DNA from: Xiphophorus maculatus
Lineage: Eukaryota; Chordata; Actinopteri; Cyprinodontiformes; Poeciliidae
DNA length: 64,000 bases
Assembly (NCBI RefSeq): GCF_002775205.1
Contig: NC_036464.1
Location: forward strand, 248,001-312,000
Reading direction: 5' to 3'
This document shows positions 11,371 to 61,293 of this stretch, in pieces (position 1 is the first letter of the stretch; each line of letters starts with the position of its first letter). A program made the position numbers and the translations under genes. The notes beneath the pieces were generated by a model. It searched no databases and was not told where the DNA came from. It saw only the letters and a list, made by a program, of their open reading frames with translations.

Positions 11371-11412
11371 GAACGATGCCCGCTCTCAACGGACATTTAG
11401 CCTTTAGCAAGG

Positions 11413-11420
11413 TGACGTCA
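11413..11420 (-). promoter_or_regulatory. ATF/CRE site (TGACGTCA) of left 7SL gene
   Basis: The perfect palindrome TGACGTCA lies 43 to 50 bp upstream of the 7SL start at 11370. Human 7SL genes need an ATF/CRE site at about -51, so position and sequence both fit a functional external promoter element. Confidence 0.8.
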
Positions 11421-11504
11421 TCACGTACTGCCGACGTCTGCTGGATCACAACAACCAAAGACGTTTAACCTACGACAGCGCATTTGGGCCAATAAAGGGG
11501 TAAA

Positions 11505-12115: not shown

Positions 12116-12251
12116 GTCGGAGTCAAGTGTTTTTAATGAATGATAAGATAATAATACTAAGGTAAGTAGTAGTCTCCTGTTTCAACCGATAAAAGTAAGA
12201 AAAAGGAAAATGTTCGGTTGTTGTGATCCAGCAGACGTCGGCAGTACGTGA

Positions 12252-12259
12252 TGACGTCA
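12252..12259 (+). promoter_or_regulatory. ATF/CRE site (TGACGTCA) of right 7SL gene
   Basis: Same motif and same spacing (-50 to -43 relative to 12302) as in the left copy, matching the known placement of the 7SL upstream element. Confidence 0.8.
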
Positions 12260-12301
12260 CCTTGCTAAAGGCTAAATGTCCGTTGAGAGCGGGCATCGTT
12301 C

Positions 12302-12600
12302 GCCGGGTGCGGTGGCGCGCGCCTGTAATCCAAGCTACCGGGAGGCTGAGGCTGGCGGATCGTTTGAGCTCAGGAGCTCTGAGCTGCAGCGGACTATGCC
12401 GATCGGGTGTCCGCACTAAGTTCGGTATCGATATGGTGCTCCTGGGGGAGCCCGGGACCACCAGGTCGCCTAAGGAGGGGTGCACCGGCCCAGGTCGGGA
12501 ACGGAGCAGGTCAAAGCCCCCGTGCCGCTCAGTAGTGGGATCGCGCCTGTGAATAGACGCTGTAGCGCAGCCTGAGTAATACAGCGAGACTCAGTCTTTT
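12302..12600 (+). ncRNA. 7SL (signal recognition particle) RNA, right copy
   Basis: Starts GCCGGGTGCGGTGGCG and ends ACAGCGAGACTCAGTC in a TTTTT Pol III terminator (12597-12601). No differences from the left copy were noticed over the part compared closely. The Alu domain, the helix 6 region (CCTAAGGAGGGGTGC) and the helix 8 region (CAGTAGTGGGATCGCGCC) are all present. The two genes point away from each other, with their promoters facing the shared spacer. Confidence 0.93.
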
Positions 12601-18421: not shown

Positions 18422-19020
18422 TTATGAGTTGTTTAGAAAAACGTTTGAGGTCGCTTTTTATCGCAACCTGATGCAGCTGCGTCAGATTACAACTGTTTAT
18501 TTCAAGGACTGGTCTAGCTCGGCCTCTCCCCAAACGTTTTATAGCATTGCTGATAAAAAAGAAATTACACTAAAGACACATTAAACTGATAAGAATGTCA
18601 ATCAAATCTCTTCAGTTGAATAAACGTGTCCGTCCTTTTCTCGCGTGACGTATGTTGCATTCAAGAGTTTCGATAAAACCTCTGAGCTAAAAGTGCATAT
18701 AAGATAAATATGTATTTGTCATTAGTTTTATGCTTAGAAAACCATGTGCATTTCCGGGCAACTTAAATCAATTAAAATATAGTAACTCAATCACTATTCA
18801 CTCATCAGAAGGCTAGAATTTTGTGCTTCAATCCCATTTTAGCACAGTTTTAGCGATTCGCATTTTTCTTTGAGTATTTGAACGCAGCACCAATTTGTTG
18901 TGGTTTAATGTCACCGACGCACAATGGGGACATTTCGCTCATTCTTACTGGCGGAGAGCAAGTCACGTGATGCCAGCTGTCCGAGACGAAGGAGCTGCGC
19001 AGCGGGTCTGTGGGCTGAAG
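18422..19020. promoter_or_regulatory. shared dnajc12-sirt1 divergent promoter region
   Basis: Only 599 bp separate the two start codons on opposite strands. Visible motifs are a perfect E-box CACGTG at 18964-18969, about 50 bp before the sirt1 ATG, and a CRE-like GTGACGTA near 18645-18652. No TATA box is obvious for either gene. Shared regulation is an inference from the arrangement, which also occurs in mammals. Confidence 0.6.
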
Positions 19021-28066: not shown

Positions 28067-28215
<149 letters not shown>

Positions 28216-35637: not shown

Positions 35638-36742
35638 GTAAACCCGACCCACCCCCATTTTGTTTGGCCTCTCTCTCTTTGTGCCGGTGGCTTATCTATC
35701 TTCAGAAACAAGCTTGGCTCTATTTCTGTAATGAAACGGGACGGGTGTTATCGTCCTCCGCAGCGTCCTGATAATTACACTTCTGTTGTTGTAACTCAAT
35801 AAATCCTGGTCGGAGCTGATCAGAATCAGGCCCAAACGGATAAAAGATTTTTTGTGTTGATTTTCTGCTTGTAAACTGACCCCCCCAGACCAACTTTGCT
35901 ATTATTAGATGTGACGCGCCTGTTTGCAAAGTATTAATGCTCACAACAGCTGCAGCCTGTTGGAAGGGCATCGCTCCTCCTCCTTAATTTGCGCTTCTTT
36001 TTTTTGTCAGCAGCATTTACGAGCTTTTTTTTCCACGTCTGTTTTCGGTAACCTGCATCATACCTGAAGAGGAAAATCCTTTCTCAGTGAAAACGTCATC
36101 CAGGTGTTAGTGCGAGGTGGACAGAGAGAACCGATCCGGGGTCAGGAACCCGATTCCCCCTGCGGAGGAGCAGGAGGCCTGAGGAAGGCCGCAATCCGGC
36201 TAAAATAAAATACTATTTTTACTACACGCCTTCATTTCAGGAGTAATGCGAATTACAAGATTATTGTGTGGTCATTGTACTTTAACTATTTAATATTTAT
36301 GTTTCGACCACAATTTGATGGGGTTTTTTTAGGGCATTTTATGCGAAAAACCAACACATTGCGTGGCGTATAATTGAGGGAAAAGAAAATTACTAATTAG
36401 GACTGCAACAAACAATTAATCGAATAACAAAAGCAACATTCTACATATTCGAATCATTTTATACAATATCAGAAATGCATTATTATTATTATTGTTATTA
36501 TTTATTTTTTTGTTATTTTGTTAGTTTTGTTTGTTAGTATGGATAACTTTGCTTGTTCCCAGTCTGCTGGATCTGATCAATCCGAACAGGATGGAAATGA
36601 TCAAAACAAATGGGATTAAAAAAGGAGTCAATGTGGGAGAACTGTAAGGAAATGTTTGAACCTTTTTTATAACACCCTCCGTTTTCGTGCTTATGAACCC
36701 ATTTATTAGCGTTTGGAACTGATGTGTGGCCATTTCAGCAGC

Positions 36743-39700
36743 ATGGAGGACGACCCGGAGCAGCCTCCGTCTCTCTCCCAGCTGCTGAGGGTGAGCTACG
36801 AGGCCCGAGCCCAGCACCGCCACGACGAGACGAGCCGCTCCGACGCTCCGTCCTCCCGCATCCAGATTTACGGCTCTCTGAAAGCCAAAGGCGACGAAAC
36901 CGTGGGCCACAACGACGCCCAGTTCCCAGACCTGTCAGCCTTCCTCAGCCAGGAGGAGCTGGATAAGAGTGTGAACTTGGCCTGCCAGGCCATCGGACAC
37001 GAGACCCGAGACGAGAAAGGCGACGTAAAGGCCGCCGTGACGTCAGGAACCGCCGCCATAAGTGACGCCACCAACCACCTCTCCCAAAACACAGTTTCTT
37101 TATCCGCCGTAGCTCCGGTGTCAAACCACTTACCTGCGTCTTCATCCGCCAGGTTCACAGCTGACAGGAAGACGCACAACAGGCAGAGGTGGGTACAGTG
37201 GCCCAGTTAGAGTAGCATATTTTTACTCAAGTAAAAGTAGACAGTAGCCGTCCACTGCACCGTTACACTGCAAAAACAGTCTTACCGAGTATTTTTCTGT
37301 AGTTTCTAGTGCAAAAATCTTATCACACTTGAAATAAGAGAAAACTAACTTTTAAGTATCATTCCAGCAAGATGTAGGAGCTTATTGTAAGTAAATCATT
37401 TCTTAATATTGATGAAAAAGTTCTAGTTCCACTAGCAGATTGACTATCAATTTGCCCTGCGCCGTTACCTAGCAACGCCAGCCAAGCCCAGCCCGTTACC
37501 TAGCAACCCAGTTCTAGTTCCACTGGAAGATTATTTCACTTATAACGTGGTAAAAATGTTTTGTTATAAGTGAAGTAATCTACCAATAGAAGTAGTACTT
37601 TTCATCAACATCAGGGAATTAGTTATTTAAAACAAGCTCCTATATCTTGCTGATAAGTTACTTTTAAGTTAGTTTTGTAATAATTCAGGTGTACTAAGAT
37701 ATTTGCGCTAGACCAACAATACTTTGTAAGATTTGGTGTTTTTGCATTGTGGTAAAAGGTCTACTCAAGTACTGAATAATTGATCAAATTATCAATTATT
37801 TAATATTTAAAAATAACGTAATCTGACAGAACAAAATGACTTTGGAAAGTTTTGTATTTTAAGAACCAAAATGACAATAATTCATATAAGTAACAAAAAA
37901 TAATAAATCAGGCCAATCAATTTTTTCCAAATCAGTTTCGTTCAATAAAAACTTATGAGACTTCAACAAAGGCTGGAATTGTGTCTGTTTATGGTGAATT
38001 TCTGGTTAAAACATGTTTGTTTTTCATTCAGTGGGTAGAAAATCCAGAAATTTTTACTCAAATAAGAGCAGAAATACTTCATAATGAAATTGTTCAAGTA
38101 AAAGTAAAAAGTAAAGCATAGTAAAAATACTCCTAACAGTACATTATTTCAAAAAAGTTACTAAAGAAAACATAATTGAGTAAATGTAACTAGAAACTAC
38201 CCAACTCTGCTCTGGTTACCTAGCAACAACTTGCTTTGTCACAAGCAGATTCAAGTTCCCCCAACTCCGGTTACCGAGCCAAAATAGTAAAAATACTCTG
38301 AAAAATTAAAGAAGTAAATGTAATTGAGTAAATGTAACTAGTTGCTACCCAATTCTGGCAACAGGCAAGACAACATGACGAGGGACAGTGTGGACGCCAG
38401 CGAAGGACTCAACGACACCAGCAGTCTGGCAAAAAGCTCCCCGTACGGTCCGGAGACCCAGTCCAAGAAGGAGTTCCTCAACAAGGCGGCGGACTTCATT
38501 GAGGAACTGTCTTCTCTCTTCAAGGCCAACAGCTCCAAGCGGGTCCGACCGAGAGCTTGCAAGGCCCACCGGACCAGGATCCAGAGCAAAACCCAAACGG
38601 ACGATGCAGTTTACCCCATCAGCCCTGACAACAGGGAGCGCGCTGCCATGCCTGTGGAGGGGGAGCAGGAAACACCCGGGCCGGCGGCGGCCCGGCAGGA
38701 CCCGGGGAGCGGGCGATTGGAGTTTCAGGACTGCACGGTTCCTAAAGAGGAGCAGTTTGACTGCGTTTCTCAGGAACCGCAGGATCTGGATGAAAGCCTG
38801 GCGCCGACAGAGAGTCCGAATCACACGGAGTCGGCATGTGAACCTCCACATTTCATCCTGAAGCTGAAGAGCAGGGAGGTTCCTGAAGGCACCAAGGTCC
38901 AGCTAGACTGCATCGTGAGGGGACATCCTGTCCCTGAAGTCCGGTAAGAAAAAATAAACTGCTTAAAGGGGCAGCATTATGTGTTTTCCAGGTGTATAGT
39001 GCCATATTATAGCATAATTAAGTAACTGTTTTCATCAATTGTTATATATCAAATATGACTTAAAAGAAATTTGACATTGTAATTTAACCCCTTAAAATTG
39101 GTCTCTGTCTCTTTAAAAACTCCTGCTGTTTCTGAAACTCTGCCTTTAGGAAATCATCACAACATGGCTCCTCTATTAACCCTTTATCAACATTTTCACC
39201 AGGGTTGCTCTGAGAAGTAGCTCCTATCATGAGTGCAGTTCCACGTGTTTGCTAATTGCTGCTGGCTAGTCTGAAGGAGCTATGGGAGGAGCTGTGCCTT
39301 GAAGGCGGGTCTAGGTCCTTCCAGGCATTTTGCTCGGCTGAATGGTTGCCATGGAGATTAAAGGATTTCTCAAACATGTATGAAAGAATCAAATCAACAA
39401 TCCAGCAACACAAAGAACCCAGAAAGTATTATATATTTATAGATATATTTTGAACAAACTATGGCCCTGATGTAGCTCCATATTATTCAGCTTTATGTAA
39501 CTTGCCAAGTCTCCCATCAAAGAGAGAAACTGAGAATGTTTTACTGACACTTTCAGAATCACGTGAAGAGTTGATACAGCTAGCTATCAAATAATCACTG
39601 AACGGATTAGGAGTTCGGAAGGAAGATGCTGTTTGTTCCTGGGCCATCCTGACAGAAGTGACATGTGATGATGGCCAGCAGCTGGTCCTGGTTCTGAATG

Positions 39701-42700: not shown

Positions 42701-45700
42701 TCTCGTATTACTATGCCGAGAATAGTCATAGCAATACGACTATGACATTTTCACTTTATTTAAAAAAAAAGAAGAAATATATTTAAAACACGAATATATA
42801 ATTGTAGATTTGACCTGAATTTAAAGTACAAATAAATGCAACCTGTAAAACATGGTTCTCAAACAAGATGGCCGCCCTCAGTGCTGACATCACTCTGAAC
42901 TATGAAAATCCAAGGAGTGTATTGGTGGGGGAAAAAATTTGATTTTTCAAAAAGTTAATCTTCAAAAACCAAAAAGGACTAATTGATGAAAATCTGTTTA
43001 TTGCCCCACCCTGCCTGAAGCCTCCACAGAGCAGATTAAATTACACGAAGTATCAGAGTAAAAGTGTCCAAATGCAAAATTATGCCACACTTTTCAGATT
43101 TGTAATCTTAAAAGAGTTTCTGAATAAGTAACTTTCCTGTACTGTGGTGAGATCCTGAGATGAACGAATAAAAACGGAGGTGGTTTACTTCCGTTTTCAC
43201 TTCCAGGTGGTTCTGTGAGGGAAAAGAGCTGGAAAACAGCCCTGACATTCAGATCATCACCAGCGGCGAGCTTCACTCTCTGGTCATAGCAGAGGCGTTT
43301 GAGGAAGACACCGGCCGATACTCCTGCTTCGCTTCCAACGTCTACGGGACGGACTCTACGTCGGCTGAGATCTATGTTGAAGGTGAGGCTCGCGTTTATT
43401 TAAAGCATCAGATAATCACCTCTTCAGAGCTTTATTCACACGCATGTCTCATCCTTCAGGTGCTTCCTCTTCAGACTCTGAGGCTGAACAGCGATTTGAT
43501 CATGTAGCCCAGTGAGTTTTACTGTCATGACATCAATCTGGTCAGAAATTTACCTTCTGATAACTAAATATTTTTTATTTTATCAATTTATTTATTTAGC
43601 TGCCATTTTTTATCCATTAATCATTATTCGTATTGCAGCAGGGACGTAAACATGTTTGAGTTTACTGGGAGCAGTGATGGTTATAAAGTCTAACAGTTGG
43701 TTTATTAGATTAAAATTAGTTTCAATCGATTAGACTTTCTTTCAGTGTTGTAGTTTGGCCGCCATCCAGCAGAGGACGCTGCTGGTCATCCTCCAACGGA
43801 GCCAGTTGATGCAAGATGGCGGCCGAACTAGAACTGGAAAGAGAAACGGTCCGAACAGAATCCGCTGTGGGATGAAAAAAAAATCACTTAGTGTGGCTCT
43901 GTTCTGAAATAGAAACACTTGACAAACTCCTTAAGTTTCACTTTAATAGCTTTTTATTCTTCCTACACAACGGAGCTGCGACAACTTCTCTACCAAATAT
44001 TACCGATGTGCTACGAAGGTTAATAACGTGAGAAAACCACAATTTATTCAGTAAATATTTAATACTGCTGACACAAAATAATAATTTAATGATGTTTTTG
44101 TTAAATTTAGCTTGTTATGACAAATTTAACGCTTTATGTTACAGAAAGACTCGATACAAGAGAAAACTCAGGTTTTTAAGAGAATGGCAGCTTGTCAATT
44201 AATAAATCAACCACCCTTATATTAACTCTTTAGTGGATAAATTGAATCTCTAAGTAGTTTCCAAAAGTGAGAATGAAAGTTTTCAATAAAAATACATTTC
44301 TGCATGAAATTCCTGCTTTTAACAACCAAATCTGCATAATCCTATTCCTCCTCTTCTTCTGTTTTTGTTTGTTTTTTAAGGTTGCAGCGGAAACCAAAGT
44401 CATCTCCATCTTTCCCTCAGTCGTCAAACCAAACTCGGCCTGTGAAGGAGGACGACTCGGCATTGTCTCCGCTCGCAGCAGCTGCAGTGGAACCGGAGGA
44501 GGATTTGACCCGAACTGCTACAGAAGCTCCTCTACCCGTCCGGACATCTGCCACCATACTGCAAGTCCCAGAGCTCGCCAGAGTGACCCTGGTTCCTCCT
44601 GCTGGGGAGGAGCAAAGAGTGCTACCTGTGCAGGTGTTTCCCACTTCAGCAGAACTAACAGAAACTGAAAACGCATCAACATTGGCTTTAAATCCAGCCG
44701 GGTCGTCCATACTGTCCACTGCAGAACAAACGCCGCAACTTCAGGTAAACGAGCTGCAAGGTTTCCGTCTGCAGCCTCATTTTTATCCAAAATATTACAA
44801 CCCACATGTCTTCCTGTGAAGTTTTCCAAAACAGGAAGAAAAAAATGGGATTATTGTTGCTCCGGAACTGAGTTCATTTCTAAAAATGTATCAGTTCAAA
44901 TCCAGCAGCATTTCTATTTTGGCATTTTTAAATGTTTGTTTGGATCCAGCAGAGGAGGGCAGAGTTCCCAAAAATGTACTGAAGAAAGAGTAGCACTACT
45001 TCCACATATTTTTACTTAACTAAAAGTAAAAAGTAATTACTTAAGTAAGAGAAAAACAGTATTTGATGAAAACGTATTGAGTAACTGAGCAAAGCATTAA
45101 TCATGTTTAAAAGTTACATTGTCAGACGCACCAAAATATTGGTAATTTTGGTATTTTAAACACCAAAATGAAAATAATTAATATAAATAACAAAAGGTTG
45201 GAGCATTTTTTTCCATGTCAGTTTCTTTCAATTAAAAACTTATAAAACTTTAATAAAAATTGTAGGTGTGTGTCTGTGCCTGGTGAAATTTAGGTTAAAA
45301 CATGTTTCTTTTACATTCAGTGGGTAGAAAATCCAGAAACTTTTACTAAAATAAGAGTAGAGATACTTTATAATAAAATTACTCAAGTAAAAGTAAAAAG
45401 TGCAGCATAGTAAAAATACTCCTAAAAGTTTTTTGTTTTTTTTAAAGTTATTTGAGTAAATGTAACTGAGTAAATGTCCGTAGTTACTACCCGGCTCTGG
45501 TTCTGTGTTTTCCTGCAGACTCCAACCTTCAGCCAGCACTACTCAGAAGAAAGAAGCGGGCCGCCCGTCATGGCCGCCCCGGTGTTCACGGAGGTAGAAA
45601 CCAGAAGTTTACATACGCTGAATTAAGACACAAACATTTATTTTCTTTCTGTCTGAAGTAAAATCAGACCAAACTTCTCTTGCTTTGGGTCAGTTTGAAT

Positions 45701-48700
45701 CACCAAAATTATTTCTGTTTGCTAAATAACATAAAAGTTTGTGAGAAGATTTTTAGATATTTATTTTTTTGCAAATTTCTTTCAATCCAGAAGTTTACAT
45801 ACATCTCATCAGTATCACTTGGGTCAAACCTGTTGGGTTTCCTGCTGCAGCATTTAGCCAATAGACATAACTTTGGTCATTCTGCCATTAACGCTTATGA
45901 GAAAAAAATGATTGTGTCCATTTATTGTGTGTATGTAAATATGTGGTTCCAGCTGCGTTTATGTATCCCTCCGTTTCCTGTTTTGTGAAAAGAGCCTACA
46001 GGAGCTGAGTGCGTCAGAAGGCCAGCTGGTGGTGCTGGAGTGCCGGGTGAAAGGAGTCCCGGCTCCGCGGGTCGACTGGTTCAGAGACGGAAAACTCATA
46101 GAGGACTCCCCTGATTTCAGGATCCTACAGAAAAGTAAAATCTGCCGCCTGTGTTTTCATATCCGTCTGAATAAACGTGTAGAAGAAGAAAAAGCGGAGG
46201 CATTTAAGAGCAGTTCGTTATTTATTTATTTAATGTGATTTTCAGATGTAGAGGGGATATGGATGACTTACAAAAGGTTTTTACAAGAAAAAAGACTGAA
46301 AAGTGTGGCATGCATATTTGTTTTAATGAGTTTCTTGTTCTAACGAGACAAGTTTTATGTCTCTTCATGAAGGGAAACTTTCTTGTTGTGATGAGAAGTT
46401 TTATAAGTTTTTTGGTTTAATGAGATTTTTATATACCACTCTGATTTTTTATGAGAAAGCTTCCCGTTGTATCGAGAACGTTTTCCGTTATAACGCACGT
46501 TTCTTATTTAAACGAGTTCCATTACAAGACGAGTTTTATATAACGCTATTTGTTGAAGGGTTTTTGTTATAACTGTGAAGTTTCTTGTTTAAATGAGAAT
46601 GTTTTGTTATGAAGTTTTATGTCTCGCTATAACGACAAAGTTTCTCTTTATGAAGTGAAATTTGTAACTGGACAAAATGAACTTTTACTTTTACTGCAGC
46701 TGGAAAAGGTCAGCAAGTAAACAGATAAAATTAAATGAGATCTGTGTTCAATTTAAATGTATTTCTCAAACAAAAATCATCATGAATTTGTTAAAAAAGC
46801 TTTTTATAGATGAGTTTGTGACTAAAGTTGGTTTCTGTTCTTGTTTCAGAGCCCAGATCTCCAGCAGAACCAGGTATGAAACTCATTCAGTCTGAAACAC
46901 ATGAGCTTCACCAGAGCAGCGTTTAGAGGAGCTGCAGTGTTTAAAGTCCTCAGCTCTTCTTCTGTACATAAGCCAGGGCTGCGACTCCCACAAACTGGAC
47001 CTTATAAGGTATCCCCCATCCCTGGCTGACGTGGTCCTCCTGCAGCAGCTGCACACCGACTCCCAGCTGAAGTGATGCGTAGAAAAACACGCTGCTGGGC
47101 TGTTTGAAGTGATGCAGGGTTCTTTGTTTTGTTTTTCTTGCAGAGGAAATCTGCACGCTGGTTATAGCTGAGGTTTTTCCAGAGGACTCAGGGATGTTTA
47201 CTTGCACAGCCAACAACAATTATGGAACCGTTTCCAGCTCTGCTGCTCTGAGGGTCAAAGGTAAAACTCCTCTTTCTTTCAACAGAATTAAAAATGTGAG
47301 AGGTTCAGGGATAATGATTATTTTAGTAATCGATTAATCTATTTATTATTCTGACAATTAATCAAATGATTCTGCATATTCTGGAGATTTTTTATTTAAC
47401 CATTTAAATCTTTTTTTACACAATATTAGAAATACATTAAAATGCAAATATACAACTAATTCAATTCCTTTTTAAATAAGAAAATAAGCATTTTATTTCC
47501 TAAATGTATTCCTTTAGAAAATCTGAACCAGGTGAGACAAAGGTGTTTTTATCTTAAATGCACTTATTTATATGCAGTTTTGGCTAATTTACTGCTCTGA
47601 CCAAGTGGCCTTTGTAAAAATCTGTATACTCCAATTAACAATTAATTGATTACTAAATTAGTAGACCATTTCAATAATCAATTAATCGTGATTAATCGTT
47701 TGAGCCCTATAGTATTTTTGGATGAATTTATAAATTGTTCCTGTGTTTTCTCAGCTAACAGCAACAACAGCAGCCATGCGAGGCCTTTCAGCGGGTTACT
47801 GACAGAGTCCCGCCGAGACCAGGGCTTCACCCCGTCGGCTCCGGCTGTGACCTCCCACCCAGAGGTCACGGTGAGCAGCAGCATCCGCCTCGAGCCGCTG
47901 GTTTCCAGCACGTTATGCCTCGACCCATTAAATACCAGCACCCTCCGTCTGGAGCCCTCTGTCCTGAACTTGGACGGCGTCTCGGGGTCCAGTGGTCCAC
48001 GTGTCGATCTCCAGAACCCCAGGCAGATTTTCTCCAGTCAAAGGCCTTTCACTGTGTCTCCTGCGGCGGCGAATACGCCTGAGCAGAAAGCGTCCAGACC
48101 GTCGGATAGACATGCCAAGGCAGCCCCAAACCGGCCAAACGGCGGCAGCGGCGTGGTTCCCCTGCCTGACCCTCCGCCTAACTCCTGCCTGAAAACAGGA
48201 ACCCTGACGAACCACAGAGACTCCCGAGCCGGCGCTAGAGTCGGCCTGCGCGTCCACTTCAAACTCCCCGAGGATGAGGAGGACGAAGAACAAGGCGACT
48301 ACGACGAAGACCTCAGTCTGGCATTGTCCGGCAAAGAGCCGCCGCCAGTACTGGCCAAGCCCAAACTGTAAGTAGAGCCAGGATGAAGTTATATTGATTA
48401 ATGAAGCTGATTTATCAATTAATAATTCATTTATAGGTGGCCATTTTCTTAAAAACATCAGTTTTCTCTTGTATCAAGGGGGCTGACCGTCTGTCCATAA
48501 CATGAAGGTTTTTTATCAGATGAAATTTTTTTAAAGAAGAACATCATATTTTAACCATTTTTTTAAAAATAAACAGAAAATTGTGGTTTTCTCAGGTTAT
48601 TAAACATAGACCTAATTATCAAGTCAAAGTTTATTTATGTAGCACATTTACATTTCAGCTGCTTCACAATAATGTCAACATCATAGGCAGATATGACAAA

Positions 48701-51700
48701 ACAAGAAATAAAATTTAAGTTTAATGAAAAAACAAAAATAAAATTGGTAGTAAATTACCAAAAAATATGAATAGAAACCAAAACTTCCCAACAATTTCCC
48801 AAAAACTTGAATCAATTAATAGTAAATTATAGCAAATCAGCAACCTTTTTAAGTTACTAAGGAGATTTTAAAAGAACAAAACATGTTAAACTCTTACTTC
48901 CCCATAAACAGAGATATTCTTACAGAAGTACTGTCTGTTACTCTTGAAGGAAAGTTAAAACTTGCATTAACTCACCACAGCCCTCAAAAACAACCGTGCG
49001 TTTTGGCGCCATGTTGTTTTTCATCATGTTGCGATTTTTCTCGTTAAATCCGCCACCTTCATTAATTTAACTTTAATTAGCACCTCAACAGGTTTAACGT
49101 CGTCATGCAGCTCGGCTGGCCGCCATGTTTGTTTTACGTATTAAGGGACTCCCTGCTTCAGGATGACCAGCGGCGCCCTCTGCTGGATGGAAGCCAAACT
49201 GCAACACTAAAAGAAGGTCTCAGCGGGCATTATTAGTTAATCGATATGAACTAAATTTAATCTAATAAACCATTAGTCGACCATTTGTTTGCATTCGTAG
49301 CTGAGAGTTGTGTGAGTTATGCAGAGGGACGTGTCAACGCAGCAGAGGAGGCGGCGCGCTTCCTCCTGCTTCCACTGACAGCAGCTGCAAACATTTCAGT
49401 TCTTAAACTCACACATGCAGACGTGAAAATGTGGATCTTCAGGCTTTCCAAAACAAAGGATGGCGTTTTTTATTTGTAAGTTTGCTTCTTTTTGTTTGTA
49501 TAAATAAATTTGCAGAAACTTGCCTTTTATTGGTTGTTTATTTAAGATTTCAGCTTGAAATTATAGTTCACTGTTTTGCAAAAATGCAATAATTTATGTT
49601 AAATAAGCTGTAAGCTGCTAACACTGAAAGGTAAATTTGTTTGGAAAAGAGATGGTGCTGTTTGTGAGCCACTTGTTTTTATTCCATAAAAGGACAGCTC
49701 GGTTTTCCTCATGCATGCCCCACTCAGCTTCACTGCATCCACATAAACGCAGTGAGTTCTGCAAAGGTATTCATCCTCCCTCAAGCTTTTTACACATTTT
49801 GTCACAAAGTTTACTGTGTCTTACCGTTTTTATTAGAAGGAGCAACATTAATTTGCATTTATTTCTTATTCTGACACCTTTAAATCCAGTGAAACCTGTT
49901 TAGAAATCTCCTAAACAGTAAACAAAGTCTATCTGTCTATAATTTAAAGAGAAAATTCACATTTTGCATGTTTTTGTACTTCCATTTGAGTCTCAACTGC
50001 TTTTAAAAACCGTCAAAGCGCTTACAAACAAAACACCCAACTGTTTCTACTGGCCAAAAGTTTATGTTCTTTGGTGTCTGGAAAACGAGCAGTTTCAAAA
50101 TCCTCCAGATGAAGTCGTATTTGGACACTGCACCGTTACTTAGCAACCACAGCAGAGGCCAGTCCGTTACCTAGCAACCCAAGTGAAACTCAAACATGTT
50201 TGTTCAGCTGGATTTATCGCTTTCTTTTTATTAGCTTCCTTTGTGTTGATATAATATTGTAGTAATACTGCCATCTCCCATTGCTGAAGGAACTTTAAAA
50301 ATCCATCCAGTCAACGATGGCGTCCATTATTACTTCCATAAACAGTTTGCTTCTGTTTGATGTTTACATTTTTCTTCTGACCATATGGGTCGCTTTGGGG
50401 TTGCAAACCGTTAACACAAAGGTCTGTTTGCAGTCACACTTAATTAGTAGCCCTGAACAGCCATGCAAAAAAAAAAAAAAAATCCGATTTCAGCAAAAAA
50501 ATTGGAATGGAGAATCAATACCTGCTGTGTGTATGAGTTGTTTTAAACTCAGATGGAAGTTGAAAACAACTTCAAGTCAAGCCTTTAGATATTATATGTA
50601 AAATATATGAAAAAGCACCATGTATTTTTCTGTGCAGGACTTTGTTTTGCTCTCTGTCGGTTTACGTCCCGACAGGTTTAAGACTTGTGTTGCTTGCATT
50701 CGTTTCCATCAACAGGGACCCGGCTCAGCTTCAGCTTCTGCACAACCAGGTCCTCCTGGAGCAGCAGCAGGAGAGCGAACCTCAGACCAAACCCCACACC
50801 CATCACCGGCCCCACCACCCATTCCAGACCCAGCTCCCCTCTGAGGTCCAAAGTCCCTCTGAGGGTCCTCTGTGGTCTCCCAGAATGCACCGTGAACCTC
50901 AGATTCCTCCGCTGAGCGCCACCAAACCTCCAGCTCCTTCGTTCAGCTCCGCCCCAGCCCTCAGCGCTGCCTCCTGGACTCCTCCTGCTGCTCCTCACCT
51001 CAACATGTCCCCTCTGGTGACCAGTCCGACCAACACCATCCACGCCTCCCATCTGAACCTTTCCCCCGCAGCTCTGAGCAGAGCCGGACCCAAACCCCAG
51101 TTCAGTTCTCCGCCGGCTCCAAAGCTCAGCGCCGCTCCACCAGACTCATCCGTTCTGCAGTTCATGTCCCCGACTCCTCAGCTCCGGAGCACTCACGCCT
51201 CCCTGATGAACCTGACCGCCGTGTCCTTCAGCTACACCCGGCCCAAGGAGTTCATCGCCGCTCAGACCCTCTCGCCCATCAGGAGTCTGTCTCCGACAGA
51301 ATCGCCGGTTCCGCTGCTGCAGGAGCTGGCCGCCGAGCTCAATTCGTCGGCGGCCAGCTCCCCGACCCCACCGCCGTTCTCCCCGCCGCTCACGTTCACC
51401 CCCACCAGGGTTCTCAAGTCGCCCACCAGTCCTCCGTCCCTGTTGTCGTCTCCCACGTTTCTGAACAGCGGTCTGGGCCTACGGGCCCAGTCGCCGCCGC
51501 AGGCGTCCTCCCCGACCTCCAGCAGCTCCTCGCCCAGCCCCATCCAGAACCCGGTGGCCTTCCTGAGCTCCGTCCTGCCGTCACTGAGCCCGAGTCAGCC
51601 CACCAACTCCATGGGGCTTCCCAAAGGAGCTCCGTCAGGGTGAGTTCCCTCTACGGCGCAAATGATTAATCGTGATTAATCGATTTTTTAAAATAATCGT

Positions 51701-54700
51701 CATTGATTCATCATCAAAAAAAATCTATTTTGTGAAGAAAAAAAAAACATATTCAGAGCAGCAATTCATCTAAAATTGTACAAAAATATATTTTGCATTT
51801 AAGATAAAAACACATTTGTCTGTAAATATGTTTGAGCCAAAACTTTTAAATCTATTTTTAATGGATAGAAAGGGCTTAAGTGGTTAAATGACAATGTAGA
51901 ATGTGCAATTTTTTGTTACCCAATTAATTGTCAGAATAATTGAACTTTTAAGTGATTATTAAATTAATAATCAGTTGCAGCCCTAGATCCTTCTCATAAA
52001 AGCTAGCGTTGCTACAAGCTAGCGTTGCCATGAGCTAGCGCTGCTATGAACAAGTGCTGCTATGAGCTAGTGCCGAACAACATGGCTCAAAAATAGAATC
52101 TTGATTTATGTTTTTTTTCATAGAACACGAGAACATTTTTTTTATTTTTACCGCAAACCTTCATTACATCTTCATCCTCTGCAGGGTCAAAAAGAAAACT
52201 CCCAAGACTCGCCTGCCGTCAGCTGAAAACATCAGTGAGAGCAAAGAGCTTCTCCTCCAGGACATGGAGAAGACACTTCGGTTAAAAAGCGATGCTCCTC
52301 AGTTTGCACATCAGCAGGTACCGTCTGAAATCTGAAATCTTTCTGTGCAAAAAACTGATCAGTTATTTTTAAAGTTTAACTCGGTGTGAAAGAAAACCAC
52401 AGAACAGAAAACAAATGTTACAACTTATGTTCTCCTCCAAACTTATCAAATAATATAGAAAAAGAGTTAAAGCTGAAACAGATTTTCATGTAAAACAAAC
52501 TATTTCTCTACATGGGATTGTTTTACACGTCTCCACCAGGTGTGTGAAAAGGTGTAAAAGGATGTTGCATGTATGCATTCTCCCCTCATGTTTGGATAAA
52601 CATGGAGTCAGACTAATTTCCACACCTCCTCCATATCAAAGTGCTGCAGCCACCATCATCCATGTCATTCACAGAGTAACAACACACAGTTTGCTCGCTC
52701 AAACCTGCAGCTTGTGTGTGGTTGTTGTTTTTTCTCAGCTTGTAGGATTAGGCCTGTCACAATAACACATTTTGATGGATGATAAACTCTCCCTGAAGTT
52801 ATTGCAGTAAATGATAATATTTTGGTTTTGAGACTATTTTCAAGTAATAAAATTTTAGTAATTTTAATGAATATTTAACACAGGAACTTGGAGACATTTA
52901 AAATATTCATTCTAGCTGAGACCAAAGCTGGAAGACTTTTATCATCCAGCTTTTGGTAGAAAGGGAGAAAATGACAAATCATGCAAAGAGAACCTACTGA
53001 GCTTGTTTTAATTTATCATGCAGCTAATACAAAGCTCTCATGTGACGTCACGCTTCGGTGAACTTTGCCATCTTGGCAGGCGGTTGCTATGGAGTTGCTA
53101 TGACAACAATAAAAAGGATACAAGCTTAGAGCTAGCTCCCGCCTCGTTCCTGTCTAACTTATAAACAACACAAATTACAACTATTACAACAAGTACTCTA
53201 CCCACCTCAGTGTAGTACTAAGTTACTTACTGTCGTACTTACTGCCGAATTAGCAGAATTAGCTTAGCTTATATAGCTTTTATCTGCTAGCTTAGACGGA
53301 CATGTATGCTACGTGTTTGTTACTACGTACTTACTCTGTCAGGCACCAGAACCATGTCATTCACATGAAGAGTTCGTAAGTTCTTTACAAATCATTTTAA
53401 AAGTTGATTGTTCAGGCCTCGAAACTCCACTATGGAGTACGTACTCTTCACTAGCTAGTTAGTCATATTGTAATAGGAAATCGGAGGCAGCTTGTCCACA
53501 TCGTCTGACATATTTTCCTTCTCCGTCTCATAGGGTCGATCCCAACAGCAGCCATTTTGTTCATGTACCGTATTTTCCGACGCACTGTTAATGAATGCTC
53601 TATTTTCGATCTTTTTTCATACATAAAGCGAAACAAAACAGTCAGATAAGTCAGTCAATAAGTAATACGTCGCGCAGTACGTATTACTCCGCGACGCTCC
53701 AGACTATGGTAGCCGTAATGTAACTAAAACATTTTGACAGAGCACAAAATCGCTCTTATGAGGCGCACTTTCATTTTTTGATATAATTAAAGGATTTTAA
53801 GTATGCCTTATAATCCGGAAAGTACGGGTATCTTTCTCTCACACACACGGTATTTTCTTTTCTTTTTTTTGTCTGGGAGCCATGAGTCCATTATGCTTTT
53901 ACCTACCAAGATGGCGCTGATCACTTCCGGTTCAGACCTGTGGGAGCTATGTATTGATTTGTTATTGTGACAGGCCTGTGCAGGATGTTTGTACCATTTG
54001 TGTGTATTTGGTGTTCATCCATCCCTGTCCTCTCGTAGAAGCTGAGTGTTAAGGGGAAAACAGCGAGCAGACTCCTTGGACCAAACAATGCTGCTACTGT
54101 CATTAACTATGATGAGGTACAAGGATCTTCCACGGCTCTGCTTTGCTCCTGGCTGAATGAGTTACCGTCTCAGACCAGAAACTTTCAAAATACGCGCACA
54201 TTATTCTGTTCTTTTACAAATAATCATTTTAATTAATATCTGTAATCCAGCATTTAAGCTTCTGTCGACTAATATATAACATGCACGAATAATTCAGTCA
54301 AAACTAATTGTGAAAATTCATAAAATTTTCAGCTTCCTATTAAATCTACATCTCAACTTTCCACTTGAAACTTTGGCAACAATTTTTAGCGTAATTATTC
54401 TCCCATGAAGTGCTTGAGATCCATACAACTAATTTGTGGTTTTATTTGGGGTCCGAAGGATAAAAAGAAACTGAGCGATTATTTCTCTGTTTTACCCTGA
54501 ACTGTTTGGTTTTATTGAGCAACAGGTTTTCTACCACCTAAATTAAGGCCAGACTAAGATTTTTTATTTTTTTTTGAAATTATGAGAATAAAATCAGCTT
54601 TTATTAGTAGAATAAAGACGTAATATTTCCAGAAGAAAGTCGTAAGAGTACTTGGAAAAAGTCTAATAATCATTTCAAAGTCCTGCGACTGATGATAATC

Positions 54701-57700
54701 TGATGCTGATGTGTTAAGAGGACTGATACCAAAGTATAATTTCACCAGATTCTTAACTTTCCTCATTTAATTTGTTTGTGAAGGACTTCTCATGAAATTA
54801 TTTTATCTTAGAACTTTATTCTCAGAGTGTGAGTTTATCCGGATAATATTATGATTTAATTCTGGTAATATTATGAGTTTATTGTCGTATGTCTACCAGA
54901 TTATTACAACTCGACTAGCCCCTTATAACTATGACTTGTTTCTTGTATTAGAACTTCTTGTAATATCACTTTTTCTGTGTACGACTTTATTCTCTTATTA
55001 TTAGAACTTCATGCTGACTTTCTTGTTTTATTACAACTTTTTTCTCCTAATTTTGCGACTTTTTCTCACATTATTATGAATATATTCTTGTAAAATGACC
55101 TTTTTGTGGCATGACTTCATTCTCATATGACTTTATTCTTGCAATTTATCTTTTTTTTTTTAGCCTGGTCCTGATACTCCGTTGTATTAAACAGACAGTC
55201 AAACTTCTCTGCATGAAAGTTCAAAATTTTTTGTAAAAGCTGCACCAATTTCTAAAACGTAACAGCAAACAGGATTTAATGAATTATAAATTTGTATTAA
55301 AGGTACATCTGACTTTACATGAGGAATAAGTTTGTATGCCTGATGATTCCTGCACATGGTTTTGCATGTGGCTGCAGTCGTCAGTTTCTCAGGCAGATTT
55401 GATGAAAATATGGAAACGTCGCTCTAACCCGACTGCCTGATTACTCGGACGTTGTTGCTTTTCTTTCTGCAGGAGTACAAAGTGTCCAACTTTGAGCAGC
55501 GGCTAATGAGTGAAATCGAGTTTCGCTTGGAGCGAACGCCGGTGGAGGAGTCGGACGACGAGGTTCAGCACGACGACATCCCGACCGGGAAATGCATCGC
55601 CCCGGTTTTTGACAAGAAGCTGAAGAACTACAAGGCGATGGAAGGCGTTCCCGTCACCTTCACCTGTAAAGTTCTGGGCGTCCCGTCTCCAAAGGTGAAA
55701 CCCGGCCCGGTTCTGACCGTCCGCCGTCGTTCCCCACACACAGTCGCTCACATCTTTGGTCCTGATCAGGTCTACTGGTTCAAGGACGGCAAGCAGATCC
55801 TGAAGAAGAACACCCAGTACCAGAAGCTGAGGGAAGGCGACGGGACCTGCTGCCTGCACATCGAGTCCACCGCCGCTGACGACGACGGAAACTACACCGT
55901 CATGGCCGCCAACCCTCAGGTTCAGTTTCATCTTTCCTCTCTTGGCCCGGTCCCAAAACTCGCACTTCTGCCCTGGTGGCCTTCAAATGCGCGTTCATGC
56001 TTGGGCTGAAAAGCTTGTGTAAAGGCGTTTCATCTCGGCTGATGTCAATAATTAGTATGTTTTTGCTTTAAATATCTGAAATACTCCCAAACCGGTGAAT
56101 GACATTTCTGGTTTTACTCACAGTTTTCACTTCATAATGTTTTTTACTTTTAAGCAGTAATGAGGCAAAACCTTAAACTGCTGCTGCGTAAGTTACTCAA
56201 CAGATTGTTGCTAGGCAACCAAATGTGTGGGGGGGTACTTGAAACTGCTAGTTACCCAGCAAGTTGTTGCTAGGCAACCAGAGAGCAGAGTTGGCTGGTA
56301 ACTAGTTATAGTTACTTGAGTTACTTTCTTGTAAAAATGTACTTGTAAGAATGTTTTTGCTACGCTGTACTTTTTAACTTTACTTAAAAATTGTTATTAT
56401 AAATTATCTCTGCACTTACCTGAGTAAAATTTCTGGATTTTCTACCCACTGAATGAAAAACAAACATGTTTTAACCTAAAATTCACCAGACACGGACACA
56501 CCTGTACTTTTTGTTAAAGTTTCCTCAGTTTCTTACTGAAAGAAACTGATCTGGAAAAAGTTATTTTGCTTGATTTTGTTATTTTTGGTCACTTAAATGA
56601 AGTATTGTCATTTGATTCTTAAAATGCCAAAATTTCCTTTTAACTTTATATTTGGTTCATCTGATGAAGTAATTTTTAAATATTAATCGATTGATAATTT
56701 GATTAGTTACTCAGTACTTGAGTAGACTTTTTATCAAATACTTTTTTACTCTTACTTGAGTCATTTCTTGGACGGCTACTTTTTACTTTTACTTGAGTAA
56801 AAACATGTTGAAGTAGTTCTACTCTTACCTGAATATATACGTAATCATACCTTTAAGTAGCTGAATGATAGCAGGAGGAATTGCCTTTAAGGCTCTGTTA
56901 AATTGACTTTTAATTAGTATTTTTTGACTAAATCATCATATGATAAAAAGTTTCCATCTTGAAAATATGGCAATGTTCAGCAAGGAAGCTGTCTGTCGCA
57001 AAAAAATCATTTTCCAAAGGTAAAGTATTGAAATAATTTTTGTTTTGCTCTACTGTACCTTTGTGAATACTATCAAATTTTTCTCCATGTTCAACAAGTT
57101 ATAGCAAACAGCCAAATATCTGCTGTAATGGCTTTGGAAAGCTAAAATATGTATACTGTACATTTAAAGTCAATTGCTTGTTGTAGTTGTCGTTTTTAAT
57201 GCCCAGTTCTGCCATTTTGGAATGAGGCGTACTGTAACAACTCTCTAATTTCTGCATGTTTGTAAGTTGTCGAACCCTTGTGTTCACTTCGACTGAGTGT
57301 GCGCTTCGGAGAGGGCTGCAGGGTGTTGAGCGAGTATTGGGAGTATTGGGCCTTTCTATCAACACCGTCCTGCTGGAGGCTCTGGCTGATTTTGGATTTG
57401 CTGTTTGGTGATCTCCAGGGACGAATCAGCTGCTCGGGACATTTGATTGTCCAATCTGGACCACCGCGAAGCCGGCTGACGCCTATTCAGTCTCAGAGGT
57501 GAGCAGACCTTAGATGGATGTGATCTGACAAACAGAGAGTGAGGAACAAGCAGTTACTTCCTGTTCCTGGACTAACATCAGTCTGATTTAGTGGATGTCC
57601 AAATCACTTTTAAGGGCAGTATTAACGCCATTTTATGTCACAATCAACTGTGTTACCATCACTGTTTATAAAAATCCCATATAGTTCAAATACGATTTAA

Positions 57701-60700
57701 AAGAAATTTGACATTGTAATTTAACTCCTTGAAATTGGGCCTCTGTCTCTTTAAAAACTCCTTCCTTCAGGAAGTCATCACCACATTTCTCCTCTATTAA
57801 CTTTTTAACAATGTTTTTACCAGCGATAACTCAGAAGTAGCTCCTATAATGAGCTCAGCAGGTCCACCAGGTGTTTGCTAATTGCTGCTGGCTAGTCTGA
57901 AGGAGCTGAGAGGGGGAGGAGCTCTGCCTTGAGGGCGGAGCTATGTCCATCCGGAAGTTTTGAAAACCTGAGTGGTTGTCATGGAGATTAAAGGATTTCT
58001 CAAACATGTATGAATTAGAAAAAGTTTATTTTACATAATACTGCTCCTTCAAACGTTTCACATTAGAATCCTCTGATCAAACCAGTTCCATAAGTTTAAA
58101 AAGCAGGCAGATGCGACCCATAGTCCAAACGGATCAACTCAGATCTTCTTACTGCCTAAAAACATCCAACTTACATTTGTGGATCTAATTCAGATCCGAA
58201 TGTTTTCAAAGCGTCTGCAGTCTGACCAAGTATGTCACATTTTAGAGAAGACAAGTGTTTCGTTGTTGACTTACCATCCAGAAACCACTTGCTGTATTCT
58301 TGATAGTTGTGCAGGAGGTTCTACTTCTGCTTTTCAGAGTTTCATGGTTGTATAATTGCGCATCTGGTTGCAGCCATTTTCATGAGTTTACACTCATGAT
58401 ACACTAATTCCTAATGTTGAGTTAGGGTCGTAGCCAGCAGCAGTTTTTTTGATTTAAAGTGACAAGAGGCCATAAAGCAGCTTAAATCTGATTATCTAGA
58501 AAGGATTTTGTGCATAAAATGTGATGAAAATGTTTTGTGTAGCTCATAGACAAAACATGAGCTACACAAAACTTGCTTCCTAACCTGGTCAAGGAAGCAT
58601 ATCAGGTCACCTTTAAAGTAAATGTTGCATTCTGTAATTTTGCTGCTGTTTTAACCTGATAAAATGACAGAAATGTTCTGTAACATGCCTTGCTGATGAT
58701 GATGCCAGGGTTCGCACTCGCATCCAGGAGGTGGAAGGTGAACAAACCCAGGAGCGTTTCTTCCGACCTCACTTCCTCCTGGCTCCCGGAGACATGATGG
58801 CTCACGAGGGCCGACTCTGCAGACTCGACTGCAAAGTACGGGCCATTAAAAACACCGAGAACATTAGCGTTTTGTTCTTCTTTTAGCTCCACCTTACTGT
58901 TGGTGTGTCATCTCCAGGTCAGTGGGCTCCCCAGCCCTGAGCTGATGTGGCTGGTCAACGGGAGGCCCATCTATCCAGACCTCAACCACAAGATGCTGGT
59001 GCGGGAGAACGGCGTCCATTCCCTGGTCATCGACCCGCTGACGCAGAACGACGCGGGAACGTATACGTGTATCGCGAGCAACAAGGCAGGACAGAGCTCC
59101 TTCAGCCTGGAGCTGAAAGTCGTTGGTGAGGTGCCACTAAGTTAACATTCATTAGCTGAGTTTCCGTTCACCAGATAATTGGACATTATGAAAATAAATT
59201 TACTTAATAAAAGCATGCCAATTAAAAATGTTAAAAAATTATAGACATTTTTGGCACTTCTTGTTTGTATTGAAATTAATTTATTTCGCAAATCTGTAAT
59301 GAAAACATGTTTTCGCATCGCACGAGTCACATGATCAGCAACCGGATGTTACTACTGCCGGAAACGACAAAGAAGATGACAGGAAGTAGGAGGATGATGT
59401 TTTTTAATGACTTTTTGCAAGAACTATCTTATTTACATGTGTTTTTAATTGCATTTCATATTTAATAGAAACAACGCAATTGCAAAGTTATTATTATTTT
59501 CCGATATTAGCGGAATATCGACAGTTTTGCGCACATTTGTAATAGAAACGCAGCATTTTTTTTTGCAGCACTTTTTTTTGTTTTGCCATAAAATAAGTGA
59601 AATAAATTTGATCTCTCTGCTTAGAGAAAGAAATGAAGCACCCGCCGCAGTTTGTGGAGAAGCTGCAGAACATGGGTATTCCTGAGGGGGCGCCGGTGAG
59701 GCTGGAGTGCCGCTTGGCGGGAATGCCGCCTCCGGCCATCTTCTGGAAGAAAGACAATGAAACTATTTCAAAAACGAAGAGCAGAATCAGGTTAGTACCT
59801 TTTGTTTTTATTTCTAAGAAAATTATACTAAAATCAGATTTGAATAATTTGTAACATAAAAAAGTGAATGGTTGTGAATCTTTACTGGTGGCAGATTGAT
59901 GTATACTGGTCAGAATATTATCATTTTGTTACCATGGAGGAATTAATCTAAGGGATATTTTTACCATCTAAACATTACGTTTGTCCTAAAAGTGACTAGA
60001 AGTTGAGACGTTTTATACAGTGATCTTAGTCGTTAACTTTACCTATTTTTTTTGTATGTTTAGCATTAGCTTCCAATGTTTTTTTTGTTTCGTAGTTTAG
60101 CGTTAACTTATGCTAATTTTTTTATGTGTTTAGTGCTTGCCTCTGTTAATTTTTTAACATTTTAGTGGTTCTGTTAGCTTTGATTAATGTTTTGTGTTTA
60201 GCTGTGTAGCTTTACTTCCCTCTCGTTTTTAATGTGTTTAGTGTTAGCCTCTGCTAATTGTTTTATGTGTTAAGCGGTTTAGCATTAGCTTCTGATCATT
60301 TTTTAAGTGTGCAGTAATTTAGTAGTAGCTTTTGCTAACTGTTTTGTGTGTTTAGCATTAGCTTCCACTAATTTTTTATGTGTTTAATGTTAGGTGTTAG
60401 AAGAGCTAACATTGTTGTTTAGCAAATTAGTAGTTAGTGGTCTTAGTTATTTAGTTAGCCAGCTAATAATGACTGCTACTGTAAGGCAAACATATGTCCT
60501 ACATCTATGGCAGCCATTTTGAAATATGAAACCTAAAACCAGAAAAATATAAAAGATTTCTGTGGACTAACTGGCAATTTTAGTGCAGAAATTAACTTTC
60601 CATGACAACCATGGTGGCCATCTTGAAAAATAAAAATAAAGAGTAAATATGATCTCTTTGCGTCCAATTATGTACGATTTGACACCAAAAGTATTCATTT

Positions 60701-61293
60701 ATGATAAATATTGGAAAATTTAGTGCAAGGATACATTTAGAATGTGTCCATCTTGAATTTTCCAGTGGCTAACTTTTTCTTTTTTGAAAAGATGTAATCT
60801 CTGTTAACATCTGTCCCACGTTCTTGTGAAACATTTTGCTGAACTATTAAATTGTCTGCTGGTGGAAATAAGTCTAAACTCTCTTATTATTTCAGCATGA
60901 CGCAGGACTCCACAGGATATGTCTGCCTTCTTATTCATCCAACAACAAAAGATGATGCTGGCTGGTACACTGTGTCAGCTAAAAACGATGCTGGAGTTGT
61001 ATCTTGCACCTGCAGACTTGATATCTATGGTAAATACTCTGCACAGCTGTCAGGTTTCTGAAGATATCCGCTCTGTAACTGTGTAGTAACTCCAGCTTGC
61101 TGCTGCGTCTTCAGCACAGTGGCATCAGAGTATCCCAGCACCAATGAGGAAAGCTCCGCGAGCGAGCAGCCGCTACGCCGCTCTGACAGGCCAGGGGTTT
61201 GACATTAAGTCGGCCTTTTCCACGTCAGACACCAGCCCCGTCCTGTTCGCCAGCTCGCCTCCGGAGGCCACCCTGGAGAGCGACGAGCTGTGA
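36743..61293 (+). CDS. mypn: myopalladin, sarcomeric Ig-domain protein
   Basis: Z-line scaffold linking nebulin/nebulette, alpha-actinin and CARP. Coding exons: 36743-37188, 38365-38943, 43207-43382, 43460-43511, 44381-44744, 45519-45593, 45993-46134, 46850-46873, 47144-47260, 47755-48367, 50716-51639, 52185-52317, 54039-54116, 55473-55694, 55770-55919, 57419-57498, 58709-58835, 58918-59125, 59625-59790, 60896-61029, 61115-61293. All are GT-AG and all phases close: 4989 nt, 1662 aa (human 1320). N-terminus SLSQLLRVSYEA, PDLSAFLSQEELD and LNKAADFIEELSSLF match myopalladin. Ig1 spans exons 2-3, Ig2 exons 6-9, Ig3 exons 14-16, Ig4 exons 17-18, Ig5 exons 19-20. A long Pro/Ser region (exons 10-11, with VLAKPKL and IQNPVAFLSSVLPSL) separates Ig2 and Ig3. 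The C-terminus LESDEL matches. Exon 8 has only 24 nt. Palladin was considered, but the N-terminus and neighbours favour mypn. Confidence 0.95.
37184..38357. mobile_element. hAT-like element forming mypn intron 1 (coding)
   Basis: Begins CAGAGGTGGGTAC and ends GCTACCCAATTCTG, imperfect inverted termini. It is flanked by ACAACAGG (37176-37183) and GCAACAGG (38358-38365), an 8-bp target duplication with one mismatch. Its sub-terminal TACTCAAGTAAAAGTAG and GTAACTAG words place it with 10440-10590, 44945-45497 and 56283-56840. Both duplications lie in mypn coding sequence in the same frame. The inferred intron is 37189-38364. A second copy of the right end occurs inside at about 38200-38209. Confidence 0.8.
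37264..37751. mobile_element. foldback element nested in the mypn intron-1 transposon
   Basis: CACTGCAAAAACAGTCTTAC at the left mirrors GTAAGATTTGGTGTTTTTGC plus ATTGTG at the right. The interior halves are also inverted (GATGAAAAAGTTCTAGTTCC against TACTTTTCATCAACATC). Two X-box 13-mers lie near the centre. Confidence 0.65.
38963..39440. mobile_element. family B MITE, copy in mypn intron 2
   Basis: Left end TTAAAGGGGCAGCATTATG. The interior shares ATTTGACATTGTAATTTAAC, CCTTTAGGAAATCATCACAA and GAGATTAAAGGATTTCTCAA with copies at 57606 and 61523. The right end is truncated. Confidence 0.65.
39701..39732. repeat. (GT)n microsatellite
   Basis: GTGTGTGT runs with one CA interruption, about 32 bp, in mypn intron 2. 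Confidence 0.9.
40200..40965. mobile_element. ATTAATCGTGATTAATCG repeat family, two adjacent partial copies
   Basis: Partial copies end near 40428 (CGATTAATCGTGATTAATCG then TTTCAGCTC) and 40958 (TGATTAATCATGATTAATCC). Both share TTTTGTACAATTTTGGCTTA-like words with 47306-47711 and 51655-51987. No coding capacity. Confidence 0.6.
40966..43206. other. remainder of mypn intron 2
   Basis: No exon is supported. An ORF at 40964-41461 has no recognisable homology. 42090-42370 is a decayed repeat of AAATATTTAGTTAGCAAACT-like words, and 42520-42780 is an AATAAAGTC-type array. Confidence 0.5.
44945..45497. mobile_element. TACTTGAGTAAAA hAT-like family copy, mypn intron 5
   Basis: Starts near CAGAGGAGGGCAGAGTTCCC and ends near GTAGTTACTACCCGGCTCTG. 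The interior (TGGTGAAATTTAGGTTAAAA, CATTCAGTGGGTAGAAAATC) matches the intron 1 element. It ends about 20 bp before the acceptor of exon 6 at 45519. Confidence 0.7.
45594..45960. mobile_element. probable Tc1/mariner-like remnant
   Basis: CCAGAAGTTTACATACGCTG at the left and TCCAGAAGTTTACATACATC at about 45788 resemble direct repeats of fish Tc1-like transposons (AGAAGTTTACATACA). No transposase reading frame remains. Confidence 0.5.
46300..46670. repeat. degenerate repeat of TTTCTTGTTNTAACGAGAA units
   Basis: About ten imperfect ~30-bp units such as AGTTTCTTGTTCTAACGAGA, GTATCGAGAACGTTTTCCGT and TATGTCTCGCTATAACGACA in mypn intron 7. Confidence 0.6.
47306..47711. mobile_element. ATTAATCGTGATTAATCG repeat family, copy in mypn intron 9
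   Basis: Begins GATAATGATTATTTTAGTAA with CGATTAATC and ends CAATTAATCGTGATTAATCG then TTTGAGCCCTA. It includes CAGGTGAGACAAAGGTGTTT. The right end stops about 45 bp before the exon 10 acceptor. Confidence 0.65.
48617..48690. repeat. dispersed tail repeat, copy 3
   Basis: AAGTCAAAGTTTATTTATGT then AGCACATTTACATTTCAGCT in mypn intron 10. The remainder of this 2.3-kb intron shows no exon. Confidence 0.4.
51655..51987. mobile_element. ATTAATCGTGATTAATCG repeat family, copy in mypn intron 11
   Basis: Begins ATGATTAATCGTGATTAATC and ends AATAATCAGTTGCAGCCCTA, in opposite orientation to the intron 9 copy. It is followed by a small GCTAGCGTTGC repeat (52000-52075). Confidence 0.65.
52750..53977. 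mobile_element. 1.2-kb non-autonomous element with 17-bp perfect inverted termini
   Basis: AGGCCTGTCACAATAAC at 52750-52766 is exactly mirrored by GTTATTGTGACAGGCCT at 53961-53977. It fills most of mypn intron 12 (52318-54038). No transposase ORF is seen. It contains a nested element at 53567-53828. Confidence 0.8.
53567..53828. mobile_element. nested MITE with CCGTATTTTCCG / CGGAAAGTACGG ends
   Basis: ACCGTATTTTCCGACGCAC at the left and CTTATAATCCGGAAAGTACGG at the right are imperfect inverted termini of a very common fish element. It sits inside the 52750-53977 element, so it inserted later. Confidence 0.65.
54560..55165. repeat. AATAAAGTC / GACTTTATTCTC array in mypn intron 13
   Basis: Many imperfect units such as AGAATAAAGACGTAATATT, AGTCGTAAGAGTAC and ACTTTATTCTCAGAG, first in one orientation and then in the other. 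Same family as the 7SL spacer. Confidence 0.6.
55695..55769 (+). other. 75-nt stop-free intron inside mypn Ig3
   Basis: Donor CCAAAG|GTGAAA and acceptor GATCAG|GTCTAC separate PSPK from VYWFKDGKQ, which are contiguous in other Ig domains of the family. The intron is exactly 25 codons long and has no stop in frame, so retained transcripts would insert 25 residues into the B-C part of Ig3. Confidence 0.75.
56040..56290. mobile_element. X-box-bearing repeat, copy 4
   Basis: Shares AAATATCTGAAATACT, ACATTTCTGGTTTTACTCAC and TTAAACTGCTGCTGCGT with copy 1. It has GTTGCTAGGCAAC at 56207-56219 and 56266-56278. Lies in mypn intron 15. Confidence 0.55.
56283..56840. mobile_element. TACTTGAGTAAAA hAT-like family copy, mypn intron 15
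   Basis: GCAGAGTTGGCTGGTAACTA at the left, then TTACTTGAGTTACTTTCTTG, and TTTTACTTGAGTAAAAACAT with GTTGAAGTAGTTCTACTCTT at the right. It abuts the X-box repeat. Opposite orientation to the copy at 44945. Confidence 0.65.
57606..58052. mobile_element. family B MITE, copy in mypn intron 16
   Basis: CTTTTAAGGGCAGTATTAAC at the left and TTACATAATACTGCTCCTTC at the right are inverted ends. The interior matches copies at 38963 and 61523 (AATTGCTGCTGGCTAGTCTG, GTCATGGAGATTAAAGGATT). Confidence 0.75.
60010..60480. repeat. TGTTTAGCATTAGCTTC minisatellite-like repeat
   Basis: About eight imperfect ~50-bp units such as TGTTTAGCATTAGCTTCCA, ATTTTTTATGTGTTTAATG and GTGTTTAGTGTTAGCCTCTG fill part of mypn intron 19. 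Confidence 0.65.

Follow-up and report, generated by a model that had tools for sequence, protein, structure and literature searches.

To our knowledge, well-documented introns made by transposons are few in vertebrates. The maize transposon Ds, a hAT element, was reportedly described by Giroux and colleagues in 1994 as being processed as an intron.

Among published systems, all cited here from excerpts, the introners are elements that provide one splice site while the target duplication provides the other (Gozashti et al. 2022, PMC9860276). Introns 3 and 5 of notothenioid slc26a2 were reported in 2025 to be transposon-derived (PMC12357937). Vertebrate intron gain is described as rare (PMC3151243); gain by intronization is treated for human genes, with methods not designed for transposons (PMC12124190), and introns inside domesticated transposons are also on record (PMC3257199). 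A Xiphophorus opsin paper contains the term "intron gain" once (PMC3087554). An earlier report of an intron gain in mypn was not found among the open-access titles and beginnings of abstracts that were listed, in one case 20 out of 3,554 matches, and by which alone most papers were judged.

Here we describe a mypn intron in a window of Xiphophorus maculatus DNA, the window being the whole stretch of 64,000 nucleotides analysed. In an ancestor of the sampled poeciliids, a transposon insertion very probably created this intron, with the donor coming from the element and the acceptor from the duplicated target.

A hAT-like element between mypn codons

The locus is organized as follows (window coordinates):

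36743..37188, plus strand: coding exon of mypn, starting at MEDDPEQ and ending at the new donor; open frame
37176..37183, plus strand: first target-site copy, ACAACAGG, coding for ..HNR
37184..38357, plus strand: non-autonomous hAT-like transposon with imperfect terminal inverted repeats; 1,174 bp
37186..37194, plus strand: donor GAG/GTGGGT from the 5' end of the transposon
37189..38364, plus strand: predicted phase-2 spliceosomal intron, GT..AG
37263..37752, no strand assigned: nested palindromic MITE-like insert with ends CACTGCAAAAACA / TGTTTTTGCATTGTG; limits approximate
38118..38357, plus strand: 3' end of the element in repeated copy, with a short spacer between
38325..38364, plus strand: 3' splice region, with branch-point-like TGTAACT (38333-38339), pyrimidines at 10/16 and CAACAG
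38358..38365, plus strand: second target-site copy, GCAACAGG, source of the acceptor CAG/G
38365..38943, plus strand: mypn exon 3' of the new intron (QDNMTRD..PVPEVR), with donor CCG/GTAAGA at its end
43205..61290, plus strand: range covered by the other mypn exons, as far as ..ATLESDEL, from tblastn of P0001

The best match of the two joined exons is the myopalladin of Xiphophorus couchianus (P0001, 97% over both exons), and this protein of 1,680 residues is alignable by tblastn to window positions 36591-61290. Only residues 630-637 gave no tblastn match, and PRSPAEP of that stretch is legible at about 46852; one alignment crosses 25 extra codons, presumably a small intron, at about 55671-55745. 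The exons aligned by this search contain neither stop codons nor frameshifts, and the rest of mypn looks intact. A pseudogene reading was dropped, as the gene is apparently intact along the P0001 alignment. The search of solved structures matched nothing but Ig domains, among them those of titin and palladin. One Xiphophorus model has a coding exon upstream, at 36591-36644, so that the name "first coding intron", used in the sequence-only reading, depends on the isoform. Elsewhere in the window, we take the ORFs at 18874-23407 (plus strand) and 2809-5228 (minus strand) to resemble, by eye, sirt1 and the RNA polymerase I subunit gene polr1b, respectively. An inverted duplicate is formed by ORFs with a common start, VSLYYSGCATASIHRR.., at 11082-11465 (plus strand) and 12126-12590 (minus strand), and the tetranucleotide CTAT is repeated 37 times in a perfect array at 28067-28215.

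The element sits without a gap between mypn codons, coding sequence abutting both of its ends, and separates two exons (36743..37188 and 38365..38943) that were formerly continuous. It starts with CAGAGGTGGGTA and ends with TACCCAATTCTG, between the flanks ACAACAGG and GCAACAGG. Transposons of the hAT type carry short terminal inverted repeats with CAG at the start, and are further recognized by an 8-bp target-site duplication. The terminal repeats at mypn (CAGAGGTGGGTA / CAGAATTGGGTA) are complementary at 10 of 12 positions, with CAG..CTG ends, and the 8-bp flanks are identical at seven of eight. Among 62,810 8-mer pairs taken at the same spacing in the window, 0.056% match equally well; in a control that crossed exon 1 with exon 2, 153 of 251,140 pairs (0.061%) reach 7/8. 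A match of this quality is unlikely as a chance event. At the second target-site copy, the P. mexicana model P0006 reads LLPNSDNRQ, which, back-translated, most simply implies that the copy in that species is ACAACAGG, a perfect duplicate, and hence that the target duplication was probably perfect originally.

An ORF scan found no ORF of at least 80 aa within the element. From the letters alone, the interruption had been read as one repeat with inverted ends at 37176-38365. The element is real and its ends are inverted, but that span included both 8-bp flanks, and the interior is a nested composite: it holds a palindromic insert, and its 3' end is doubled, the 3'-terminal 57 bp being present at 38153-38209 and again at 38301-38357 (81% alike). 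The same reading counted at least three other copies of the family in the window; relatives do occur, but all are partial, comprising two long ones (45074-45499, plus strand; 56231-56736, minus strand) and several short pieces, as found with a query that ran from 37188, the fifth base of the element. The copy at 45074-45499, in an older mypn intron, stops about 19 bases 5' of the native exon start at 45519 and may thus contain that intron's branch point. In addition, GAGGTGGGTA is present on the minus strand at 53199.

Predicted splicing and the two-residue scar

The ends of the intron are the ends of the element and its target duplication, within coding sequence. The donor GAG/GTGGGT has the top score in 37000-37400, 8.7 on a hand-entered weight matrix; on the same matrix, the best GT near the mypn exon ends scores 3.8 to 11.0 at 13 of the 14 scanned, and one end has no GT. 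This donor is also implied by six NCBI models and by P0184. The second target-site copy supplies the acceptor CAACAG/G, preceded by a modest pyrimidine tract (10/16), and TGTAACT, about 27 bases before the acceptor, is by eye a fair branch-point candidate. When 37188 is joined to 38365, the frame stays open for 342 codons up to the next donor. The last five bases (CAGAG) of the exon at 36743..37188 derive from the transposon, and the joined frame predicts HNRQRQDN instead of HNRQDN, a two-residue insert. A scar-free GC donor (exon end 37182) was rejected: it fits none of the six NCBI poeciliid myopalladin models, the HNRQDN expected from it is shown by none of 11 poeciliid entries, and it scores -1.4 on the hand-entered matrix, which penalises every GC donor heavily.

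With the joined exons as query, 496 homologues were found; the best 120, each standing for a 90%-identity cluster, were listed. Six of these 120, all poeciliids (P0001-P0005 and P0007), have the two-residue scar. They come from Xiphophorus couchianus, Poecilia latipinna, P. formosa, Gambusia affinis, P. mexicana and Poeciliopsis prolifica, representing four genera, and comprise every listed NCBI poeciliid model named myopalladin (6/6). Nine of the listed matches are, by our assignment, members of the poeciliid family. The three UniRef-only poeciliid entries (P0006, P0008 and P0009) are without the scar, and each time the NCBI model of the same species has it. The split of the splice sites proposed in the sequence-only reading, with a donor in the element, an acceptor in the duplicated target and a scar of two residues, agrees with these protein data.

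This exact junction is not shared by five other poeciliid models, four from UniRef (P0006, P0008, P0009 and P0121) and one from NCBI (P0184). Translations of the element end appear in P0006 (P. mexicana; LLPNSDNRQ) and P0121 (X. couchianus; LLPNSGNRQ). In P0184, an NCBI hypothetical protein of Gambusia, the donor of the element is followed by a segment like window 41152-41286. The corresponding stretch at 41138-41286, in the next mypn intron, resembles the tail of P0184 (89% over 45 residues, 41152-41286); the match may reflect an alternative exon or else an error of prediction. RPARYLAT of P. latipinna P0009 resembles 37476-37508 in the intron, a weak match (E 2.5), and part of the intron may be used as an exon in that model.

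Such models could be taken to mean that splicing of the element is weak or variable, the insertion being mildly damaging and tolerated via alternative isoforms that use an upstream donor or skip an exon. The P. formosa protein P0008 seemingly reaches the same acceptor from an upstream donor, P0184 omits the following exon, and P0009 is without the stretch around the site; moreover, the six agreeing NCBI models are computed, come from a single annotation source and represent close relatives, and are therefore not independent. We nevertheless consider this explanation quite unlikely: one exact junction is common to all six, the flanking residues are conserved on either side in all four genera, the donor is the strongest nearby by the hand-entered matrix, and read-through into the element meets a stop codon at 37208-37210. 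NCBI annotation models of this kind generally draw on RNA-seq. The six models predict splicing at 37188/38365, as a transposon-made intron would require.

The site in outgroups and other vertebrates

Protein comparison revealed that the scar is absent from Anableps, Fundulus, Cyprinodon and Ameca. The score with the scar exceeds that of the empty site by 16 to 22 in the six poeciliid NCBI models, whereas the empty site is favoured by 12 in Anableps, Cyprinodon and Ameca, and Fundulus gives a tie. The proteins thereby point to an unbroken exon in the nearest outgroups. The comparison with related fish that the sequence-only reading had suggested places the scar in six poeciliid species and not in the nearest sampled outgroups.

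A further search found 137 homologues, of which the best 120 were listed. In 90 of these 120, a single ORF runs from the LSAFLSQE motif across the site to the exon end, PxVR, and stops there. The frame of the window likewise stops at the exon end because the donor reads TAA in frame, and single ORFs that end exactly at the donor would for this reason most likely be reads of unspliced genomic exons. Those named include Tupaia, Alligator, Apaloderma and Sinocyclocheilus. The other 30 (among them P0121 and P0184, multi-exon models, sequences with different ends, and cases that lack one of the strict motifs, several ending in PxVR) do not bear on the continuity of the exon at this site. For relatives without the element, the 90 of 120 listed homologues, presumably genomic reads, indicate that there is no intron at the site, as do the nearest outgroups by protein; the site looks like part of one uninterrupted exon in other fishes, birds, the alligator and the mammal Tupaia.

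An older intron at this codon, later overwritten or filled by the element, is very improbable, given that coding sequence abuts both ends of the element and is duplicated there, that the same 90 listed homologues have one ORF across the site, and that the empty site is the closer match to the Anableps, Cyprinodon and Ameca proteins. An artefact of the assembly or of one individual is hardly credible, as models from six species carry the scar and models from two of these species contain element-end translations. Altogether, the clade-limited scar and the apparently unbroken exon in other vertebrates support the claim, made in the sequence-only reading, that a transposon made the mypn intron.

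Proposed origin and comparison with known systems

We propose that a non-autonomous hAT-like element inserted into the uninterrupted large coding exon of mypn in the ancestor of Xiphophorus, Gambusia, Poeciliopsis and Poecilia, and that the insertion duplicated 8 bp, ACAACAGG. The 5' terminus of the element would have acted at once as a good donor, CAGAG/GTGGGT, its 3'-terminal region would have contributed a modest pyrimidine tract as well as a branch-point-like site, and the second target copy would have become the acceptor CAACAG/G. The mRNA would retain five bases of the element and one of the target, so that the protein gains two residues in frame. Use of the annotated junction by the cell, the choice of branch point and a single insertion in the common ancestor are inferences. 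To call the intron domesticated, as had been done, exceeds the evidence.

By arithmetic, five retained element bases and an 8-bp duplication with AG at positions 6-7 yield a six-base, two-codon scar, and AG at positions 3-4 also preserves the frame; the terminus may therefore predispose insertions in the mypn orientation to become in-frame introns. We rather doubt that the hAT-like family qualifies as a genuine introner of vertebrates, one that through its ready donor and an AG at positions 6-7 would have made several introns in genes of poeciliids or related fish.

Maize Ds reportedly resembles the mypn element in being a hAT element that is processed as an intron; the reported case is a mutant allele of a plant, whereas the mypn intron is common to several genera.

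In the excerpts cited, slc26a2 is, like mypn, a teleost gene with an element inserted in an exon; the gt-ag of its intron 3 lies within the direct and inverted repeats of the element, NTE-1, which has tgt..aca ends and 4-nt direct repeats, and its authors infer later growth of the intron via a second element (PMC12357937). Unlike NTE-1, the mypn element has CAG..CTG ends and is flanked by an 8-bp duplication, and the models of six species show a protein scar of two residues. Introners share with mypn the split splice sites and added codons, with 4 bp of element and an 8-bp target-site duplication in Aureococcus; however, introner families were kept, in the excerpted account, at no fewer than four similar introns per genome that did not arise via gene paralogy, whereas mypn presents a single intron (PMC9860276). 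The mechanism is thus already known from introners, maize Ds and slc26a2, and the mypn case adds another example. Its merits are a clean anatomy, a protein scar common to the models of four genera, and a vertebrate host. The probable order of events is legible at one locus, from target duplication, element donor and target acceptor to the scar and the clade that shares it, which makes mypn a good test case for a new intron that would be spliceable at once, and would then persist and grow by nested insertion.
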